Virus record (IMG/VR): IMGVR_UViG_3300021075_000206
Coordinates: 1-27,077 of that record
Reading direction: 5' to 3' (one strand)
DNA: 27,077 nucleotides
DNA from: a virus
In this document: positions 1,295 through 26,978 of the stretch, in pieces
How positions within the stretch are numbered: position 1 is the stretch's first letter
Layout: each line of letters begins with the position of its first letter
Position numbers and translations under genes: made by a program
The notes under the pieces: generated by a model
The model's database searches: none
What the model was told of the DNA's origin: nothing
Seen by the model: only the letters and a program-made list of their open reading frames with translations

Positions 1295-3796
1295 ATGGAT
1301 GCAAAGCAATATGATTGGGTAGGTTTCTACAAGGAGTTTTCTCATCTTTTGTTAGCTTATAAAAACAATAGGAAGGCACTCATTGATAAGGTCAAGAGAA
1401 TCTATAGCAATACTGGTATTAATCTGCCGACGTTGGAGAAAGATAATAAGATCGTTGACATAGACCCGTTTACGGTGTTTGGGCTGTTCAACAAAAGCTC
1501 CATGAAAGAAACAAACCGTCTGAAAATCATCTCGGAAGTAGCAGTAGAGTTTGGAGTTCGAATAGCTATCCCTACGTCTTTTGACAGTATTCCTGTGTTA
1601 AATAATCAAAATGCCACTTTTTACTATTTCGCAGAAGATCGTGCAGAGCACGATATTGAAGACTTGTGGGACCTGTTTGAAGCCGCTTTGAAGTATGCTG
1701 ATAATCCTTCGGCAGAAAACCGGAAAGTTCTCTCGAAGTATTTTGACCTCGCCATCAATAAAAAAGGCAATGGTAATAGTAAAATCACGATGGGGCTTTA
1801 TTGGATAGCTCCTAATTCTTTCCTCAATCTGGACCAACGTAACACTTGGTATATATACGAATCAATGAAAATTCCGGCAGAAGTCGTCGCATCTTTGCCG
1901 GATATTGAACCCAAAATAAAGGCCAAGAAGTATTTTGACACAGTTGAAAAGCTTCGCAGTTACCTTAGCAGCAGCGTGAGTAGTTTAAAGGACTTCAAAG
2001 AGCTGTCATTTGAAGCCTGGAGATATTCGGTGGAAGTGAATCAGGAAAAGAAAACCGAAAAAATAAGAGCCTCAAATGCGGCGTTTTTGAAGTGGTTTAA
2101 ACCTTTAGTTCAGGCGTTACGTGATCTTGATGGATCAGCAACACCCCAAGATACCCGCGATAAAATCATCGAAAATGAACAACTTGCAGAGGAAGTGACA
2201 CGCGAAACCAGAGGGAAAAACAATTTAAATAGGTTTGAAAACGAGGTGTCGTTTGCACGCAATTATCTTGTTTACGGAGGTTATATAGATAATGCAACAT
2301 ATGGAATATGGAAGTTGACTGAAGAAGGTTGGAAAGTCGATATGACAGAAAGTCTCGCATCTGAAATATTCAAGAAAGGTGTTAAGGCCACTCGTGATGA
2401 TAAAGGAGCTGGCCTTGCTGACGAAGACGTAGACACTGTTCATTATTGGATCTATTCGCCGGGCGACGGTGCTATTAAGTGGGAAGACTTTTATCGGCAA
2501 AACATAATGGGAATCGGTTGGAGCGAGATTGGTGATTTAACGCAATATGCCAGCAAAGATGATATGAAGACTGCCATGAAAGAGATATATGACCCATCGC
2601 GGCCTTATAAAAATGCAGCACATGCCACGTGGCAGTTCGTACATGATCTGAAGCCAGGCGACATAGTCTTTGTAAAGAAAGGCATGCATCAGCTTGTTGG
2701 TCGAGGTGTAGTATCATCGGACTATTTTTTTGATTCAACCATTGATATAGAGTATGCCAATCTGCGAAAGATGAACTGGACTGATAATTGTTTAGAACAG
2801 CCAAAGGACCATCCGGGGCAGGCTGTAATGAAAACCTTGACGGATATTACTCCGTATACAGATTACGTTGAGAAATTATGCGCCTTATTTGATAAAGATG
2901 AAGATACCGATGACGACGAGATACCCGAGGTTTCATATCCACTTTATGACACAGAAAAGTTTCTTGATGAAGTGTATATGGATGAGGACAGTTATAATAC
3001 TCTTGTTGGACTTGTTAGGACGAAGAAAAATGTTATTCTTCAGGGCGCTCCAGGTGTTGGTAAAACATATGCTGCCAAGCGTTTAGCATACTCTATGATG
3101 GGGGTTAAAAATCAGGAACGTGTGATGATGATCCAGTTTCACCAAAGTTACAGTTACGAAGATTTTATTGAAGGGTTTCGTCCTTCTGCTGTCGGAGATG
3201 GATTTGAAATTAAGAAGGGCTCCTTCTATAACTTTTGCAAGAAAGCAGCCGATGACCTTGAGCATGAATACTTCTTTATTATTGATGAGATTAACAGAGG
3301 AAACCTGAGTAAAATATTTGGGGAACTTCTTATGCTTATTGAGAACGATAAACGCGGAAATGCGCTGCAACTTCTGTATTCTGATGAGAAGTTCTCAGTA
3401 CCGAAGAATTTATTTATTATTGGCATGATGAACACAGCAGATAGAAGTTTAGCCATGCTTGACTACGCACTTCGCAGGCGTTTTGCTTTCTATGAAATGC
3501 GACCAGGATTTGAATCTGATGGTTTCAGAGAATACCGCATGGGTTTGAAGAGTGAGAAATTCGATAATCTCATCGATTGTGTTGAAAATCTGAACGGAAT
3601 CATTATAGCTGATGAATCTCTCGGTGAGGGGTTCTGCATAGGGCACAGCTACTTCTGTGAACTGGATGAAATTACACCTTCTGTGCTTTCAAATATAGTT
3701 GAGTATGAGCTTATCCCGCTATTAAAGGAGTACTGGTTTGACGAACCACTGAAAACCAAAGACTGGACAAACTATTTAAGGAGTGCTATTAAGTGA
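1295..3796 (+). CDS. mcrB: McrB-type GTPase subunit of modification-dependent restriction
   Basis: This 833-residue protein is the predicted motor and DNA-recognition subunit of a McrBC system, which cuts DNA carrying modified cytosines after GTP-driven translocation. The C-terminal half is an AAA+ domain of the McrB clade. It has a Walker A motif GAPGVGKT at about 584-591, a Walker B with the McrB signature FFIIDEINRGN at about 659-669, and a sensor-type NTADRSLAMLDYALRRRF stretch at about 712-729. The N-terminal half is much longer than in E. coli McrB. At about 381-475 it carries an EVE/PUA-like domain (MGIGWSEIGDL, then LKPGDIVFVKKG and GRGVV), a likely modified-base reader. The ATG is 8-12 bases after a GGGGGATG site. 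The stop overlaps the mcrC GTG start (GTGA), so the two are translationally coupled. The gene appears intact. Confidence 0.88.
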   Translation: MDAKQYDWVGFYKEFSHLLLAYKNNRKALIDKVKRIYSNTGINLPTLEKDNKIVDIDPFTVFGLFNKSSMKETNRLKIISEVAVEFGVRIAIPTSFDSIPVLNNQNATFYYFAEDRAEHDIEDLWDLFEAALKYADNPSAENRKVLSKYFDLAINKKGNGNSKITMGLYWIAPNSFLNLDQRNTWYIYESMKIPAEVVASLPDIEPKIKAKKYFDTVEKLRSYLSSSVSSLKDFKELSFEAWRYSVEVNQEKKTEKIRASNAAFLKWFKPLVQALRDLDGSATPQDTRDKIIENEQLAEEVTRETRGKNNLNRFENEVSFARNYLVYGGYIDNATYGIWKLTEEGWKVDMTESLASEIFKKGVKATRDDKGAGLADEDVDTVHYWIYSPGDGAIKWEDFYRQNIMGIGWSEIGDLTQYASKDDMKTAMKEIYDPSRPYKNAAHATWQFVHDLKPGDIVFVKKGMHQLVGRGVVSSDYFFDSTIDIEYANLRKMNWTDNCLEQPKDHPGQAVMKTLTDITPYTDYVEKLCALFDKDEDTDDDEIPEVSYPLYDTEKFLDEVYMDEDSYNTLVGLVRTKKNVILQGAPGVGKTYAAKRLAYSMMGVKNQERVMMIQFHQSYSYEDFIEGFRPSAVGDGFEIKKGSFYNFCKKAADDLEHEYFFIIDEINRGNLSKIFGELLMLIENDKRGNALQLLYSDEKFSVPKNLFIIGMMNTADRSLAMLDYALRRRFAFYEMRPGFESDGFREYRMGLKSEKFDNLIDCVENLNGIIIADESLGEGFCIGHSYFCELDEITPSVLSNIVEYELIPLLKEYWFDEPLKTKDWTNYLRSAIK

Positions 3797-4833
3797 TACC
3801 AGTACAGAATGTTTATTATATGCTGGCATATGCTTTCAAAGTATTGAATGAGCAAGCATATAATAATATATCCACAGAACAATTTAAAAACGTTGCGGAG
3901 CTATGCGCAGCCATTCTGACAAAAGGTATTTCTGTTCAACTCAAGAGAGGACTCGGGCGGGAATACATATCGGAAACGGATGTTTTATCTGCAATTCGAG
4001 GAAAGATCGATATTTCTGAATCTATGAAATCTCTGACGATGTTAAAAAAACAGTTGATTTGCGAGTATGATGATTTTTCAGTGAATTCCTATATGAATCA
4101 GGTTATCAAGACTACTGTTAAACTTTTGCTGCGTTCGGATATTTCAAAAACACGAAAAAAGGAACTGCATAAACTGTTCGCATTCTTTGGCGAAGTTGAA
4201 TTGCTGGATGTTTATAACATAAACTGGAGCTTTCAGTACAACCGTAACAATCAAACTTACCGGATGCTAATTTCAATCTGTTACTTGATCGTGAAGGGAT
4301 TGCTTCAGACTAATTCTGATGGAACAAAAAAGCTGATGGAGTTTATTGATGAACAGCGTATGTCCCGACTCTATGAGAAATTTATTCTTGAATATTTCAG
4401 GAGAGAACATCCAAAGATATTAGCTAATGCATCTCAGATTCCATGGCAGTTAGATGATGATATGAATCATATGCTTCCAGTTATGCAAACCGATATCACG
4501 CTTACGAAAGATGAGAAGACGCTGATAATCGATGCAAAGTATTATTCTAATACGATGCAGACTCAGTACGATGTGCATACACTGCATTCCGGAAATCTGT
4601 ATCAGATATTTACTTATGTGAAGAACAAAGAAAGTCAGCTAAGAAGTCAGCCGCATGAGGTATCCGGCATGTTGCTCTATGCTAGAACCGATGAAGTTGC
4701 TCTGCCAAATAACACATATATGATGAGTGGCAATAGGATAAGCGTTCAGACACTGGATTTAGATTGTAATTTTGAGGAGATTGCGGCACAACTTGATGCT
4801 ATAGCATTCCGATATTTTGGATCCAGCGCCTGA
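3793..4833 (+). CDS. mcrC: McrC nuclease subunit
   Basis: This 346-residue protein is the expected partner of the upstream McrB. McrC carries the PD-(D/E)XK nuclease and stimulates the McrB GTPase. The N-terminus IPVQNVYYMLAYAFKVL is typical of the family. The nuclease core is visible at about residues 233-251: MQTDITL, then LIIDAKYY (the D...DAK pair), followed by a Q-rich helix, YQIFTYVKNKE, that fits the third catalytic element. The GTG start overlaps the mcrB stop. The length is normal for McrC. No further gene follows in the same operon, because an AT-rich gap of about 290 bases comes next. I am confident of the family. The exact modified substrate is not readable from sequence. Confidence 0.87.
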   Translation: MIPVQNVYYMLAYAFKVLNEQAYNNISTEQFKNVAELCAAILTKGISVQLKRGLGREYISETDVLSAIRGKIDISESMKSLTMLKKQLICEYDDFSVNSYMNQVIKTTVKLLLRSDISKTRKKELHKLFAFFGEVELLDVYNINWSFQYNRNNQTYRMLISICYLIVKGLLQTNSDGTKKLMEFIDEQRMSRLYEKFILEYFRREHPKILANASQIPWQLDDDMNHMLPVMQTDITLTKDEKTLIIDAKYYSNTMQTQYDVHTLHSGNLYQIFTYVKNKESQLRSQPHEVSGMLLYARTDEVALPNNTYMMSGNRISVQTLDLDCNFEEIAAQLDAIAFRYFGSSA

Positions 4834-18331: not shown

Positions 18332-19597
18332 ATGTTAATTGAAAAAATAAGTGTAAGTAAACTAAAGGCTGCAACCTATAATCCTCGTAAGGATTTAAAG
18401 CCGGGAGACGTTGAGTATGAAAAACTAAAGCGAAGCATTGAAGAGTTTGGATATGTTGAGCCAGTTATTTGGAACAAGACCACTGAAAATGTTGTGGGCG
18501 GTCACCAGCGCCTAAAGGTTTTGATGGAAAGCGGAGAAACAGAGATTGATTGCGTAGTAGTGGAGCTGGACAAGGAAAGAGAAAAGGCTCTCAATGTGGC
18601 GCTTAACAAAGTGTCGGGTGCATGGGATAACGATAAGTTGATGTCCTTGATTACAGACCTAAATGCAATTTCATTTGATGTATCACTCACTGGCTTTGAC
18701 GCAGCCGAGATTGACGCTCTCTTTAAAGATAGCCTGAAAAATGGACTTAAGGAAGACGACTTTGACGTGGAGGGCGAGCTTCAAAAACCCGCCATCTCAA
18801 AGCAAGGCGATGTTTGGTTGCTTGGTGAACACCGACTTGTATGTGGCGACAGCACAAAACCTGAAACATTTAATGTATTAATGGATGGCAAAAAAGCAAA
18901 CCTAGTTGTTACCGATCCTCCGTATAATGTGAACTATAAGGCCGATGCCGGAACAATTCAAAACGATAACATGAAAGATGAAGCGTTCTACGATTTTTTG
19001 TTTGCAGCGTTTTGTAATACAGCAAACGCAATGGAGTCGGATGCAAGTATCTATATGTTCCATGCAGACACCGAAGGCCTGAACTTTAGAAAAGCGTTTT
19101 CTGCAGCCGGGTTTTATCTCTCGGGCACTTGCATTTGGAAGAAGCAGAGTCTGGTTCTGGGTAGAAGTCCATATCAGTGGCAGCATGAACCGGTGCTTTT
19201 TGGTTGGAAAGTTAAGGGTAAACACAATTGGTACACAGATAGAAAGCAGACTACCATCTGGGAGTTTGATCGGCCCGGCAAAAATGCAGTGCATCCTACA
19301 ATGAAACCAATTAACTTGGTCGCCTACCCAATTATGAATTCAAGTATGAGCAATTGTATTGTACTTGACCCCTTTGCAGGAAGCGGCTCGACACTGATTG
19401 CCTGTGATCAAACAGATAGGATTTGCTACTCGATTGAACTTGATGAAAAATACTGTGATGTAATTGTGAAACGCTACATTGAACAGGTTGGCACAAGTGA
19501 ACGAGTGTTTCTTGAGAGGGATGGTACCAAAACAATGTATGACGAGGTCGCTGACGCGCTGAACGGTGAGCAACCTAATACATTGGCCGATAATTAA
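18332..19597 (+). CDS. ParB-domain/DNA methyltransferase fusion
   Basis: This 421-residue protein joins a ParB/Srx-like N-terminal domain (about 1-95, with YNPRKDLKPGD and GGHQRLKVL) to a beta-class DNA methyltransferase. Catalytic motif IV VTDPPYNVNY is at about 193-202 and precedes motif I DPFAGSGST at about 346-354, the order of the beta class. The product is N6-methyladenine or N4-methylcytosine; DPPY alone does not decide. Such fusions are common in phages between terS and terL, probably protecting phage DNA from restriction. The ribosome binding site is CGGAGATG. Weakly spaced genes follow. Family assignment is firm, and target sequence is unknown. Confidence 0.9.
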   Translation: MLIEKISVSKLKAATYNPRKDLKPGDVEYEKLKRSIEEFGYVEPVIWNKTTENVVGGHQRLKVLMESGETEIDCVVVELDKEREKALNVALNKVSGAWDNDKLMSLITDLNAISFDVSLTGFDAAEIDALFKDSLKNGLKEDDFDVEGELQKPAISKQGDVWLLGEHRLVCGDSTKPETFNVLMDGKKANLVVTDPPYNVNYKADAGTIQNDNMKDEAFYDFLFAAFCNTANAMESDASIYMFHADTEGLNFRKAFSAAGFYLSGTCIWKKQSLVLGRSPYQWQHEPVLFGWKVKGKHNWYTDRKQTTIWEFDRPGKNAVHPTMKPINLVAYPIMNSSMSNCIVLDPFAGSGSTLIACDQTDRICYSIELDEKYCDVIVKRYIEQVGTSERVFLERDGTKTMYDEVADALNGEQPNTLADN

Positions 19598-22599: not shown

Positions 22600-22624
22600 G
22601 AACTCCAACCGGGGTTCTTTTTTT
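22600..22624 (+). terminator. Terminator-like hairpin directly before terL
   Basis: GAACTCC (22600-22606) pairs with GGGGTTC (22611-22617) around AACC, followed by T7 (22618-22624). It ends 17 bases before the terL ribosome binding site. Because no promoter is visible between it and terL, it probably works as a partial attenuator or is bypassed by antitermination. Confidence 0.7.
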
Positions 22625-22646
22625 GTTGTTTCGTTTCGAAAAGGAG

Positions 22647-24254
22647 GTGGCAATTATCCGAAAACTTAAAAAATACAATCAGACAGAGTTTGCTGCAATT
22701 GATTCAGTTTACAACAAAGGCTTTGCGGATAGTGCCGTCAACTTTATAAATTGCCTTAACCACACCAAAGGCGAATGGTTCGGACAGCCTTTTGACTTAA
22801 TCGACTGGCAAGAGCAAATCATACGCGATGTCTTTGGAACGATAAAACCTAATGGTTTTAGGCAATTCAATACTGCCTATGTAGAGATCCCGAAAAAACA
22901 AGGCAAGTCGGAGCTCGCTGCTGCAGTTGCGTTATTGCTAACATGTGGTGACCACGAATATGGTGCAGAGGTTTATGGCTGCGCATCTGATCGACAGCAG
23001 GCTTCCATTGTATTTGATGTGGCGGTCCAAATGGTTGAGCAATGCCCAAACCTAAAAAAAAGAATTAAGCCGATACTATCTCAAAAAAGACTTATTTATA
23101 AACCGCTCAACAGTTTTTATCAGGTTTTATCTGCCGAAGCTTATACCAAACACGGACTCAATGTTCATGGTGTAGTGTTTGACGAACTTCATAGCCAGCC
23201 TAACAGAAATTTATTTGATGTCATGACGCATGGTTCAGGCGATGCCAGAAAGCAACCGCTGTATTTCTTAATCACTACCGCCGGAACTGATCGGCATTCG
23301 ATATGTTGGGAGGTTCATCAAAAGGCAGAAGATATTCTTAAAGGCAGAAAGAATGATCCTACATTTTATCCAGTTATTTATGGCGCTGCTGATGAAGCAG
23401 ACTGGATGGATGAGAAGATTTGGAGGCAAGTGAATCCATCGGTCGGAATAACGGTCGACATTGAAAAAATCAGAACTGCATGTGAGAATGCCAGACAAAA
23501 CCCAGCCGAAGAAAACTTGTTTCGTCAACTTAGATTGAATCAGTGGGTGAAACAGTCAGTTCGATGGATGCCAATGGAGAAGTGGGATAAATGTGATTTT
23601 CCTGTGTTCCCAGAAAATCTACTTGGAAGAGAGTGTTACGGTGGGCTTGACCTTTCAAGCACGACAGACATTACAGCATTTGTGTTAGTGTTTCCGCCGG
23701 AAGATGCAGACGATAAATACACGATACTTCCTTACTTTTGGATCCCAGAGGACAACATTTTACAGAGAGTCAGGAGAGATCATGCGCCGTATGATGTGTG
23801 GGAAAAGCAAGGACATCTAAAAACAACAGAGGGGAATGTGGTCCACTATGGATTCATTGAAAGTTTCATTGAGGATCTTGGCACGAAGTACAATATTCGA
23901 GAAATTGCTTTTGACCGTTGGGGCGCGATTCAAATGGTTCAAAATCTCGAGGGGTTAGGGTTTACGGTTGTTCCTTTTGGTCAAGGGTTCAAGGATATGT
24001 CACCACCGACAAAGGAACTGATGAAGTTGACACTAGAAGAGAAAATCGCCCACGCAGGACAGCCTGTTCTTCGTTGGATGATGGACAACATTTTTGTAAG
24101 GACTGATCCTGCAGGGAACATCAAGCCGGACAAAGAAAAAAGCACTGAGAAGATTGACGGTGCGGTTGCAACAATAATGGCGCTTGATAGATCATTAAGA
24201 CATCAGGATGACGCGGGTTCGGTTTACAATGAAAGGGGAATCATTATTCTATGA
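22647..24254 (+). CDS. terL: Terminase large subunit
   Basis: This 535-residue protein is the packaging motor and nuclease. The ATPase domain has VEIPKKQGKSELAAAVALLL (Walker A-like, about 77-96), YGCASDRQQASIVFDVA and Walker B VVFDELHS (about 176-183). The nuclease domain has GLDLSSTTDITAFVL (about 333-347), EIAFDRWGA and a final DGAVATIMALDRSL. Full-length homologues begin close to RKLKKYN. In this gene no ATG exists there. The strong AAAGGAGGTGG site at 22640-22650 is followed in frame by GTG (22647, inside the site), ATT (22653) and ATC (22656), so initiation may be non-canonical. I mark GTG as a conservative start. A TTG at 22623 is inside the terminator T-run and unlikely. Confidence 0.93.
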   Translation: MAIIRKLKKYNQTEFAAIDSVYNKGFADSAVNFINCLNHTKGEWFGQPFDLIDWQEQIIRDVFGTIKPNGFRQFNTAYVEIPKKQGKSELAAAVALLLTCGDHEYGAEVYGCASDRQQASIVFDVAVQMVEQCPNLKKRIKPILSQKRLIYKPLNSFYQVLSAEAYTKHGLNVHGVVFDELHSQPNRNLFDVMTHGSGDARKQPLYFLITTAGTDRHSICWEVHQKAEDILKGRKNDPTFYPVIYGAADEADWMDEKIWRQVNPSVGITVDIEKIRTACENARQNPAEENLFRQLRLNQWVKQSVRWMPMEKWDKCDFPVFPENLLGRECYGGLDLSSTTDITAFVLVFPPEDADDKYTILPYFWIPEDNILQRVRRDHAPYDVWEKQGHLKTTEGNVVHYGFIESFIEDLGTKYNIREIAFDRWGAIQMVQNLEGLGFTVVPFGQGFKDMSPPTKELMKLTLEEKIAHAGQPVLRWMMDNIFVRTDPAGNIKPDKEKSTEKIDGAVATIMALDRSLRHQDDAGSVYNERGIIIL

Positions 24255-24339
24255 AATTCTACATTTAAGTGTTGTTAAAACAAACTCGAGTTGCTTGATG
24301 ATGTTTCTTGCATTTGTTATTGTTTCTTTGGTGATGAAA

Positions 24340-24594
24340 ATGGAATTATCTAAAGAAGAAGCGGTTGAAATGCTTATAAAGTGGATGGGAAACAAATATT
24401 TTTTTGAGTATGCTTATCAAAAAAGCAACGAATTCAGAATTTATTTTGGTTCGTTAACTGATTTTGAAAAGCACAAGATTAGAAAGAGTCACAATGGAGA
24501 GTCGGCACAGTACTCAAATGTTTTACAGATTCAAGAGGTGGTGGAATCACCATTGTTTGACGTGATATTTAAAAAAATTAATAAAAATATTTAA
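24340..24594 (+). CDS. Small accessory protein after terL, unknown function
   Basis: This is 84 residues if started at the ATG at 24340 (weak GGTGATGA upstream). Earlier in-frame ATGs at 24298/24301 would add a hydrophobic MMFLAFVIVSLVMK segment, possibly a membrane or signal helix, but no ribosome binding site is visible there. The body is helical and charged (MELSKEEAVEMLIKWMGNKY, then FFEYAYQKSNEFRIYFGSL). No family is recognised. It is AT-rich, as are the next two genes, and lies between terL and portal where no gene is normally needed. It is probably cargo. Confidence 0.5.
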   Translation: MELSKEEAVEMLIKWMGNKYFFEYAYQKSNEFRIYFGSLTDFEKHKIRKSHNGESAQYSNVLQIQEVVESPLFDVIFKKINKNI

Positions 24595-24606
24595 TGCCTC
24601 GGCGTG

Positions 24607-24626
24607 CATAACGAATCATAACGAAT
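24607..24626 (+). repeat. Perfect tandem 10-bp repeat upstream of the cargo promoter
   Basis: CATAACGAAT occurs twice in direct succession (24607-24616 and 24617-24626), ending seven bases before the -35 box at 24633. Its ATAACGA core resembles the GTAACG half-sites downstream of the promoter, so it may bind the same regulator. Confidence 0.55.
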
Positions 24627-24632
24627 AGCATG

Positions 24633-24661
24633 TTGACAAACATAAAATAAAGCAGTATAAT
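24633..24661 (+). promoter_or_regulatory. Consensus promoter of the EVE-like cassette
   Basis: TTGACA (24633-24638) and TATAAT (24656-24661) are separated by exactly 17 bases, a perfect sigma-A promoter within the phage late region. It drives the 24722 gene independently of the late operon, so this cassette can be expressed in the lysogen. Confidence 0.88.
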
Positions 24662-24670
24662 CTTTTTGTA

Positions 24671-24698
24671 GCGTAACAAGTGTAACGAAGCGTTACGC
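24671..24698 (+). promoter_or_regulatory. Palindromic operator candidate
   Basis: GTAACG (24682-24687) and CGTTAC (24691-24696) form a perfect dyad with a three-base spacer, and a wider pair GCGTAAC (24671-24677) / GTTACGC (24692-24698) overlaps it. The site lies at about +3 to +30 of the consensus promoter, where bound protein would block elongation or start. No cognate regulator is obvious in the cassette. Confidence 0.6.
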
Positions 24699-24721
24699 AA
24701 AATACAAAAGGAGGAATAGTA

Positions 24722-25348
24722 ATGAATGTTTTTCAGATTAAAACAAAACCACACAACATTGAAAGAGGACGTCAATTTATTGAAGAAAATTTTATTTGCA
24801 TCGGATGGCCTGGTATAGGAAGTCTTGATCATCTTTCTAAAGATGAGATTCGAGGACTTCTTGAAAAAAAATATCGATACACTGGTCACAGTCTAGGAAA
24901 CAATCTTGGCCAGGTAAATAGTTTTGTTAATACTATGAAAATTGGAGATGTCGTAATTATTACTGAGAAGAGTTGGGCGCACATTGGCATTGTTGGTAAT
25001 TATGAATACTATCCTCAATACGATAGTGACAAAGATGGAATGTGCCACAAGCGAAGTGTGAATTGGATTAGCAGAGTATTAATAGTCGAATTAAATAGTA
25101 GCATTCAGAAATTATTAAGCAACAGAAACACAATTTGTCTGTATCCAGAAACGTTTGAAGATTCTGGATTAGAAAAATATTTGTTTAATAATGTAACTGA
25201 AGGTCACAAACAAAAAAACAAATTTGAAGAAATGTATGAAACTGCTTTAAAAATTATCGAATCTGAATTGACTTCATCAGATATTGATAGAAGATTCAAT
25301 GCAGCTGTAGAAATTCTTCGTTTGAAGAATATCAGTAATTTTAATTGA
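24722..25348 (+). CDS. EVE/PUA-like domain protein, candidate defence or modified-base reader
   Basis: This 208-residue protein starts at an ATG with an AAAGGAGG site. Residues 3-110 resemble the EVE-like domain: MNVFQIKTKPHN, FICIGWPGIGSLDHLSKDEI, then VNSFVNTMKIGDVVIITEK and HIGIVGNYEYY. The same pattern occurs in the N-terminal half of the McrB in this window (MGIGWSEIGDLTQYASKDDM, LKPGDIVFVKKG). EVE-type domains bind modified bases, and in defence genes they read modified DNA. The C-terminal part is helical (EEMYETALKIIESELTSSD) without a recognised nuclease. It shares a promoter with the next gene. Role is inferred: a defence or anti-defence protein. It could also be a truncated restriction subunit. 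Confidence 0.65.
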   Translation: MNVFQIKTKPHNIERGRQFIEENFICIGWPGIGSLDHLSKDEIRGLLEKKYRYTGHSLGNNLGQVNSFVNTMKIGDVVIITEKSWAHIGIVGNYEYYPQYDSDKDGMCHKRSVNWISRVLIVELNSSIQKLLSNRNTICLYPETFEDSGLEKYLFNNVTEGHKQKNKFEEMYETALKIIESELTSSDIDRRFNAAVEILRLKNISNFN

Positions 25349-25362
25349 AAGGGGTTTTATCA

Positions 25363-25650
25363 ATGACTAAAGAGCAAGAAATTATGGATTATTTACACGA
25401 AAAAGTCTTTGATCCCGTTTTAGACTCCAAGATAGCATCTTCTAATTTGAAAAGTGGTATTAACTTAACCATTATGAGAATGAATAAGCTGCGTGCTGAA
25501 AAGATGGTACAATACTTTTGGTCAGCAGTTATAGGAACAGAAAGAAGTATTGGATTTGCAAAGTCGATGAAAGATGAGGGCTTTGTTAGATTCGAGGAAA
25601 CAATAGAAGAGTTTAGAGTTAAATTCAATGATGCTTGGCTTATAAAATAA
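25363..25650 (+). CDS. Small helical partner of the EVE-like protein
   Basis: This 95-residue protein starts at the ATG at 25363 (AAAGGGG upstream) and follows the EVE-like gene after 14 bases, so the two form an operon. The sequence is compact and mostly helical: EQEIMDYLHEKVFDPVLDS, then GINLTIMRMNKLRAEKMVQY, YFWSAVIGTERSIGFAKSM, and FEETIEEFRVKF. No family is recognised. Its conservation-like pattern (well-formed amphipathic helices, complete stop and terminator) suggests a real gene that works with the EVE-like protein. It is followed by a terminator. Confidence 0.65.
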   Translation: MTKEQEIMDYLHEKVFDPVLDSKIASSNLKSGINLTIMRMNKLRAEKMVQYFWSAVIGTERSIGFAKSMKDEGFVRFEETIEEFRVKFNDAWLIK

Positions 25651-25669
25651 AAAAGTAAAATTATTAAGA

Positions 25670-25695
25670 AACACTCTGGAAACGGGGTGTTTTTT
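25670..25695 (+). terminator. Terminator closing the EVE-like cassette, directly before portal
   Basis: Bases 25670-25678 pair with 25683-25691 (9 bp including G-T pairs) around a stable GAAA tetraloop, followed by T6 (25690-25695). It lies 13 bases before the portal ribosome binding site region, as at terL, so portal transcription must come through it or from elsewhere. Confidence 0.75.
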
Positions 25696-25721: not shown

Positions 25722-26978
25722 ATGCGACTACCAATTATCAGTAAACTATTTCAATCAAGAGCCAGTCCGCAGAATGTGTTTTGGTCAAACGCGTACCAGT
25801 TTTTCTTTGGCAGCACCTCAAGCGGTAAGACGGTCAATGAGCGAACGGCAATGCAGACCTCGGCAGTGTATGCCTGCGTGAGGATACTGGCAGAAACGAT
25901 TGCGAGTCTTCCACTTCACACTTACCAGCACACCGACAGAGGAAAAGAAAAGGCTGTTGACCACCCGTTATATTTTCTGCTTTATGCAGAACCAAACTCC
26001 GAGATGACTTCTTTCGTGTTTAGAGAAACACTGATGAGTCATCTTTTATTATGGGGTAATGCTTATGCACAGATTATTAGAGACGGAAACGGTAGAGTTC
26101 TGGGACTTTATCCACTGCTGCCGGATAAGATGAGCGTTGATAGGAACGCAAACGGTACAATTTATTACATTTATCAAACGGACTCAGGCGAAGTATTGCT
26201 ACCCAAAGAGTCCGTTTTGCATATTCCGGGGCTTGGTTTTGACGGTCTTATTGGCTACTCTCCTATTGCTATGGCTAAAAACGCAATCGGAATGGCAATT
26301 GCAACTGAGGAATATGGAGCCAAGTTCTTTGCAAACGGGGCAAACCCCGGCGGAGTGCTTGAGCATCCAGGAGTAATTAAAGATCCCAAAAAGGTGCGAG
26401 AGAGCTGGAACTCAGTGTATGAAGGCAGCGGGAATGCACATCGAATTGCTGTGCTTGAAGAGGGGATGAAATTTACTCCTATAGGAATACCGCCAGAGCA
26501 GGCACAGTTCCTAGAAACAAGGAAGTTTCAGACCGAGGAGATCTGTAGAATATTTCGAGTACCACCGCATTTGGTTGCAGATTTGGACAAAGCAACCTTT
26601 AGCAATATTGAACATCAGTCAATGAGCTTTATTGATAACACGATTGTGCCTTGGGTTACACGAATTGAACAATCAATTCAAAAATCACTACTTACAGCTT
26701 CCGAGAAAAGCAGTTATTTCATCAAGTTCAATATTACAGCAAGGCTTAGAGGTGATGCCAACTCAAGGGCGTCATTTTATCAAACCATGCGCCAAAACGG
26801 AATCATGTCAGCAAATGACGTGCGGGCGTTGGAGGAAATGAACTTAATCCCTGAGGAACTTGGTGGCAATAAGTACTTTGTAAACGGTGCGATGGTGGAC
26901 ATGGCGCAGGCTGGTAGTTGGGCAAATTCATCTGGAGATAACGGAGTAAGTAATTTTGGGAAGGAGGAGATCAAGTGA
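25722..26978 (+). CDS. HK97-family portal protein
   Basis: This 418-residue protein has typical portal length and pattern: NERTAMQTSAVYACVRILAET near 40-60, HPLYFLLYAEPN, MTSFVFRETLMSHLLLWGNAYAQI, LYPLLPDKMSV, IPGLGFDGLIGYSPIAMAKNAIG, and FQTEEICRIFRVPPHLVADL. Twelve copies form the gate in one vertex of the capsid through which TerL pumps DNA. The ATG has AAGGAGGACGAG. The stop overlaps the GTG of the protease gene. Family sure. Confidence 0.93.
   Translation: MRLPIISKLFQSRASPQNVFWSNAYQFFFGSTSSGKTVNERTAMQTSAVYACVRILAETIASLPLHTYQHTDRGKEKAVDHPLYFLLYAEPNSEMTSFVFRETLMSHLLLWGNAYAQIIRDGNGRVLGLYPLLPDKMSVDRNANGTIYYIYQTDSGEVLLPKESVLHIPGLGFDGLIGYSPIAMAKNAIGMAIATEEYGAKFFANGANPGGVLEHPGVIKDPKKVRESWNSVYEGSGNAHRIAVLEEGMKFTPIGIPPEQAQFLETRKFQTEEICRIFRVPPHLVADLDKATFSNIEHQSMSFIDNTIVPWVTRIEQSIQKSLLTASEKSSYFIKFNITARLRGDANSRASFYQTMRQNGIMSANDVRALEEMNLIPEELGGNKYFVNGAMVDMAQAGSWANSSGDNGVSNFGKEEIK

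Follow-up and report, generated by a model that had tools for sequence, protein, structure and literature searches.

A two-gene operon for a YTH/EVE-like protein, with a candidate operator of its own, in a recurrent cargo slot between the phage genes terL and portal

In the stretch of viral DNA analyzed here (all 27,077 nucleotides of IMG/VR record IMGVR_UViG_3300021075_000206, hereafter the window), terL and portal are separated by a gap of 1467 bp with a GC content of 32.0%, as compared with 42.8% for terL and 44.6% for portal. A previous sequence-only reading of this region had described a low-GC insert that carries a three-gene cassette, comprising a small protein, an EVE-like protein and a helical partner. 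The insert proved to be real (32% GC vs. 43-45% in the flanks), but the operon within it has two genes rather than three, namely that of the 208-residue protein, here called the reader, and orfC, because the 84-residue ORF A sits upstream of the promoter (Table 1). The two genes are co-directional, with orfC starting 14 nt past the reader gene.

Table 1. Positions in the window of the cassette, its presumed control elements and the genes that border or resemble it.
Feature	Positions	Strand	Remarks
Related reader domain within McrB-like protein (1295-3796)	2483-2800	+	E 2e-6; outside the cassette
terL	22623-24254	+	Left border of cargo slot; phrog_9, E 2e-183
ORF A, 84 residues	24340-24594	+	No relatives found in searches; 5' of promoter; probably outside operon
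Operator box 1, two 10-bp repeats CATAACGAAT-CATAACGAAT	24607-24626	+	Begins 26 nt 5' of -35 hexamer; candidate operator
Promoter TTGACA-17-TATAAT	24633-24661	+	12/12 consensus match
Operator box 2, tandem repeats GTAACAAGT-GTAACGAAGC-GTTACGCAA	24671-24700	+	Includes inverted repeat GCGTAAC/GTTACGC; candidate operator
Ribosome-binding site GGAGG of reader gene	24710-24714	+	Read from sequence
Reader, 208 residues, YTH/EVE-like, C-terminal two-helix tail	24722-25348	+	Model, Foldseek, PADLOC PDC-S02
OrfC, 95 residues, six-helix, no known family	25363-25650	+	22-row alignment A4; model pLDDT 88
Intrinsic terminator GAAACACTCTG-GAAA-CGGGGTGTTTT plus T run	25668-25695	+	Stem 25668-25693; ends 28 nt 5' of portal start
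portal	25722-26978	+	Right border of cargo slot; PF04860, E 5e-127

The site itself is informative. Among 80 relatives recovered by a search with terL only, 76 contain both terL and portal; in 30 of these 76 the gap exceeds 250 bp and holds variable cargo, while in the remainder it is near zero. The expectation that terL and portal are normally adjacent thus applies to about 60% of the relatives and fails in the others, where a recurrent cargo slot is found. In several cargo-free phages the two genes overlap or almost abut, and comparison with such empty sites revealed that the terL stop codon lies inside an ATGA, which overlaps the portal start in cargo-free relatives and is retained at the end of terL in the window. 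Following this ATGA in the window is ATGAAATTCTACATTTAA (24251-24270), a possible leftover of the old portal start. The cargo of occupied slots measures 0.4-1.8 kb and differs from phage to phage, with family matches to RelB, ParE, PemK/MazF-like, HepT, nucleotidyltransferase, Fic, DUF3800, PAPS reductase, PLD, GNAT and HTH proteins; HepT and nucleotidyltransferase also occur as combined cargo, and one slot harbors a YoeB-like toxin (a weak match, E 0.006) together with an HTH-M78 protein. Many PADLOC models match cargo proteins, the best being SoFic, SspD and PD-Lambda-2_B, but we take these names as leads rather than proof of defense since several of them describe generic folds. PAPS-reductase-family cargo is present in loci L034 and L037; the SspD and BrxP models of PADLOC match two cargo proteins each, probably these. 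The reader gene itself lies inverted in the slot in L028 and L126. The terL-portal interval is therefore a recurrent cargo slot in HK97-type phages, mainly those of clostridia-like hosts. A literature search of partial coverage yielded no description of a slot at this site, and the two landmarks that bound it, the terL stop and a terminator shortly 5' of portal, allow temperate phages to be mined for new defense and toxin-antitoxin genes.

That terminator forms the right border of many occupied slots. The GAAA-loop terminator predicted earlier is present after orfC, and of 36 cargo loci (some of them closely related) 25 have a terminator that ends 25-32 nt before portal, usually in the form AGCATCTC-loop-GAGGTGCT plus a T run; by comparison, any terminator-like site, with its position unconstrained, occurs in 20.5% of random 160-bp windows. 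Such a terminator is missing from all 6 loci whose cargo is inverted. This association with forward cargo is expected if such cargo is expressed in the lysogen and its transcripts must not extend into the late genes. A terminator within the late region would require either read-through or a separate promoter for portal, neither of which was found.

As for the reader, its best AlphaFold2 model has a pLDDT of 79.5, with disagreement among the five models (down to 48.6), and the top 15 PDB matches of this model in Foldseek are all YTH domains or close kin, with a probability of 0.96-1.00, E values of 1.7e-3 to 1.5e-2 and TM scores of 0.3-0.5; the leading hits are YTH readers of m6A, among them YTHDF structures (probability 1.00, E 1.7e-3). 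In addition, the reader is 25% identical over 131 residues (E 9e-7) to the reader domain of a McrB-like protein encoded in the same window. Pfam models for EVE (PF01878) and YTH (PF04146) matched neither the window reader nor any of the nine members of alignment A3, and PADLOC PDC-S02 matched with E 1e-14 at positions 16-179 of 324 only. Trp29, within IGWPGIG, a residue that might contribute to an aromatic cage for a modified base, is invariant in alignment A3, and a helical C-terminal tail (AL.VLE.ELKS.DP.RRLKAA.EL.RLK) is conserved among close relatives; dN/dS values of 0.05-0.19, where dS was computable, indicate strong purifying selection. One reader member showed an HTH_60 match (E 0.0014, below cut-off), which was treated as chance. 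The 208-residue protein models as a YTH-like fold of the EVE superfamily, and its initial designation as EVE-like can be made more exact as YTH-like; since Bell et al. (2020, PMC7641849) state that YTH-like and EVE domains of prokaryotes are frequently hard to distinguish, we prefer the cautious term YTH/EVE-like. As a direct query the window reader retrieved no relative from viral contigs, genome contigs or the phage collection; relatives were reached via terL, via OrfC and via the L005 reader, alone or as a profile. Among 391 genomes of the same class, the reader domain occurs in 18, mostly within larger proteins, and OrfC occurs once. The McrB-like protein (Mrr_N, YTH/EVE-like reader domain and AAA domain) is followed by a McrC-like ORF (together 1295-4833); this pair adjoins a type I specificity subunit that is cut short (1-516) and is located just 5' of phage repressor-type genes. 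A ParB-methyltransferase-like ORF was recognized by eye at 18332-19597.

Upstream of the reader gene, the promoter is perfect, as had been claimed, with a 12/12 match vs. a best-site mean of 7.6 in 100 shuffles (p 0.01), and the palindrome noted earlier is also there as the inverted repeat GCGTAAC/GTTACGC at 24671-24698. Such a strong promoter match is not slot-wide: outside the reader cassettes only a few cargo loci have one, and many score no better than chance. We compared eight non-redundant reader loci (the window, L005, L007, L090, L099, L121, L124 and L028), in each of which TTGACA precedes a TATAAT-like hexamer, accompanied by tandem 10-bp repeats with the consensus CRTAACGAAT, typically two units 5' of the -35 hexamer and two to three past the -10 hexamer. 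The motif TNRCGAA occurs 18 times in reader cassettes vs. 2.1 expected and a maximum of 8 in 1000 shuffles. With a leave-one-out matrix, built each time from the other loci, seven of the eight loci scored above the shuffle 99th percentile, where the matrix units were hand-picked and the loci are related to each other, a kinship to which the shuffles are blind. Boxes 1 and 2 of the window scored 24.6 and 22.6, respectively, against a 99th percentile of 10.7; in L121, the one locus below threshold, comparable repeats of 11 bp can be recognized by eye. None of 16 control upstream regions, which include OrfC cassettes without a reader and more distant reader relatives, matched the operator (best score 7.3). 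Given that L090, L124 and L028 bear the operator without OrfC and that L099 bears it outside any terL-portal slot, the operator tracks the reader gene and neither OrfC nor the phage. The simplest explanation of this traveling operator is probable autorepression of the operon, by the reader or by something that accompanies it. Elsewhere in the window the tandem repeats do not recur at comparable strength (the next best site scores 13, vs. 25 and 21), not even close to the repressor-type genes; the operator was therefore rejected as a site of the phage repressor.

Morons are phage genes with their own promoter and terminator. The cassette has both, is absent from relatives and is atypical in GC, and with a candidate operator in addition it is a self-contained unit, as originally proposed. 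We surmise, with a probability of about 0.5 for the reading as a whole, that it is a moron operon expressed in the lysogen, probably for defense against other phages; the analysis shows its anatomy, slot and operator, its recurrence and the resemblance in fold, and lysogen expression, autoregulation, base reading and defense are the inferred parts of this scheme. A mobile, presumably self-regulated reader operon within a cargo slot is well supported, and its defensive use is plausible at about even odds. The strong promoter, of the sigma-A type, would drive both genes in the lysogen, and the terminator would stop their transcription before it enters portal and the late genes. The reader would probably recognize a modified base in nucleic acid, and it, or something that accompanies it, would probably repress the operon; it may mark modified incoming phage DNA upon which a nuclease then acts, such a nuclease forming part of the operon in two relatives and possibly acting in trans for the window cassette. 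EVE domains, both stand-alone and fused, are known in defense contexts (PMC7641849). If correct, the unit would be a base-reader operon that stands alone and possesses a conserved operator.

The role of a nuclease is suggested by the neighbors of reader relatives: 1) in L005 (5286-5714) and L007 (5343-5786), the reader and OrfC are followed by a third gene for a GIY-YIG protein (PF01541, E 9e-6), with 68% identity between the two; 2) on two Exiguobacterium plasmids, a reader relative (41%) has a match to a methyl-directed restriction enzyme within 0.5 kb downstream; 3) in a clostridial genome (L131, 18-2728), two tandem reader relatives adjoin an AbiH-family protein. These neighbors point to defense against modified DNA. 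Within the window cassette itself, ORF and Pfam analysis detected no nuclease, translocase or known effector. A cassette without a nuclease would also suit an anti-restriction or decoy function, in which the reader shields the phage by covering modified positions in its genome or by competing with host McrBC-like readers, and since the same window encodes a McrB-like protein that contains a related reader domain as well as a ParB-methyltransferase-like ORF, modified DNA and readers may coexist there. Of the alternatives this one survives best, yet we consider it unlikely, as the nuclease added in L005 and L007 would be needless for a pure decoy and the promoter and terminator suggest expression in the lysogen rather than early in lytic growth.

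The second gene of the operon belongs to a family with a broader distribution. OrfC is modeled as six helices (pLDDT 88), fold searches of PDB and BFVD gave no match, and weak Pfam matches of OrfC members were treated as chance; a function as an acidic DNA mimic was ruled out by predicted pI values of 6.1 to 9.3. Its relatives, 55-73% identical to the window copy, are found in phages and genomes of Bacillota, Pseudomonadota, Bacteroidota and Chloroflexota and on rhizobial plasmids, and a dN/dS of 0.04-0.14 (where dS was computable) again denotes strong purifying selection. OrfC lies behind the reader in five of the eight reader loci (the window, L005, L007, L099 and L121), so that a search for the pair in other genomes produced four further non-redundant loci, one of them outside the terL-portal slot. 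Dedicated partnership was not upheld, however, because three of the eight reader loci lack OrfC and most OrfC loci lack a reader. Elsewhere OrfC is next to HigBA-like genes (L100, L101 and L103), with a 136-148-residue protein of no family in two lineages (L004 and L116-L119), with DUF1413 proteins (L003 and L104), with putAbiC and a GmrSD-like gene (L107), and, as read by eye, near HicAB-like genes (L098 and L120). The 136-148-residue protein stands alone in the slot in L068; in L122 and L123, phages resembling alphaproteobacterial ones, OrfC and the small terminase gene are divergently oriented, which places OrfC near terminase genes there as well. In the OrfC tree, the window copy falls outside a supported group that contains all other reader-paired copies, implying that reader and OrfC partners have been exchanged. 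Judging from these neighborhoods, OrfC is a mobile, promiscuous accessory common to several cassette types, and it represents a small helical family of no known fold, spread over several phyla beside such cargo.

This promiscuity bears on a toxin-antitoxin or addiction function, whereby the reader and OrfC, autoregulated via the operator repeats, would stabilize the prophage. Two small co-directional genes 14 nt apart with an operator around their promoter would fit such a module, as would a slot rich in cargo of this type and the location of OrfC beside HigBA-like and near HicAB-like genes; nonetheless, the pair is not obligate, as three of eight reader cassettes do without OrfC and many OrfC loci without a reader, and neither protein matches a toxin family, for which reasons we rank it below the decoy and deem it improbable. 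Next in rank, and doubtful, is the notion that the reader acts chiefly as a transcription factor, on its own promoter or on other promoters of the phage or host, with its YTH-like fold binding the operator repeats. That the operator follows the reader gene even to L099 would agree with this notion, but with no other strong tandem-repeat copy in the window no regulon is visible. More speculatively still, and with only a slim chance of being right, the YTH-like protein might bind the CRTAACGAAT operator in a modification-dependent manner such that the cassette senses the DNA methylation state, with OrfC as an exchangeable adaptor; if true, the cassette would constitute a prophage-borne, self-regulated epigenetic alarm, switching on (together with a nuclease where present) upon entry of foreign modified or unmodified DNA. 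A need for these genes in head formation or packaging, as their position between terL and portal on the same strand might suggest, is very improbable, given that most relatives lack them although terL and portal are intact, that they have their own promoter and terminator, that the reader gene is inverted in L028 and L126, and that reader relatives occur on plasmids and, in L099, outside the slot.

Returning to a moron operon for defense as our preferred reading, the cassette may be compared with four known systems. With type IV restriction of the McrB or EVE-nuclease type (PMC7641849; VcaM4I, PMC7897488) it shares the YTH-like fold and the similarity to the McrB reader domain, together with the GIY-YIG or methyl-directed nucleases that adjoin reader relatives; EVE-GIY-YIG fusions and stand-alone EVE genes beside restriction-modification systems have been described (Bell et al. 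2020, PMC7641849). In contrast to these systems, the window reader is a separate protein of 208 residues that ends in a helical tail, has an operator of its own and OrfC as a neighbor, lies in a phage slot and has no nuclease beside it. The PADLOC candidate PDC-S02 is homologous over about 120-170 residues, but its models span about 300-346 positions, whereas the window reader lacks the C-terminal half and carries another tail. The slot resembles the hotspots of P2 prophages and P4 satellites, where a fixed site between core genes harbors exchangeable, often defense-related genes (Rousset et al. 2022, PMC9122126), and the P2 site also adjoins portal (PMC9122126); it differs in the type of phage, in the terL-portal site and in a frequently shared terminator at its right border. 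Finally, the cassette has in common with morons a promoter, gene and terminator arrangement, an atypical base composition and absence from close relatives, to which it adds tandem operator repeats that are specific to reader cassettes.
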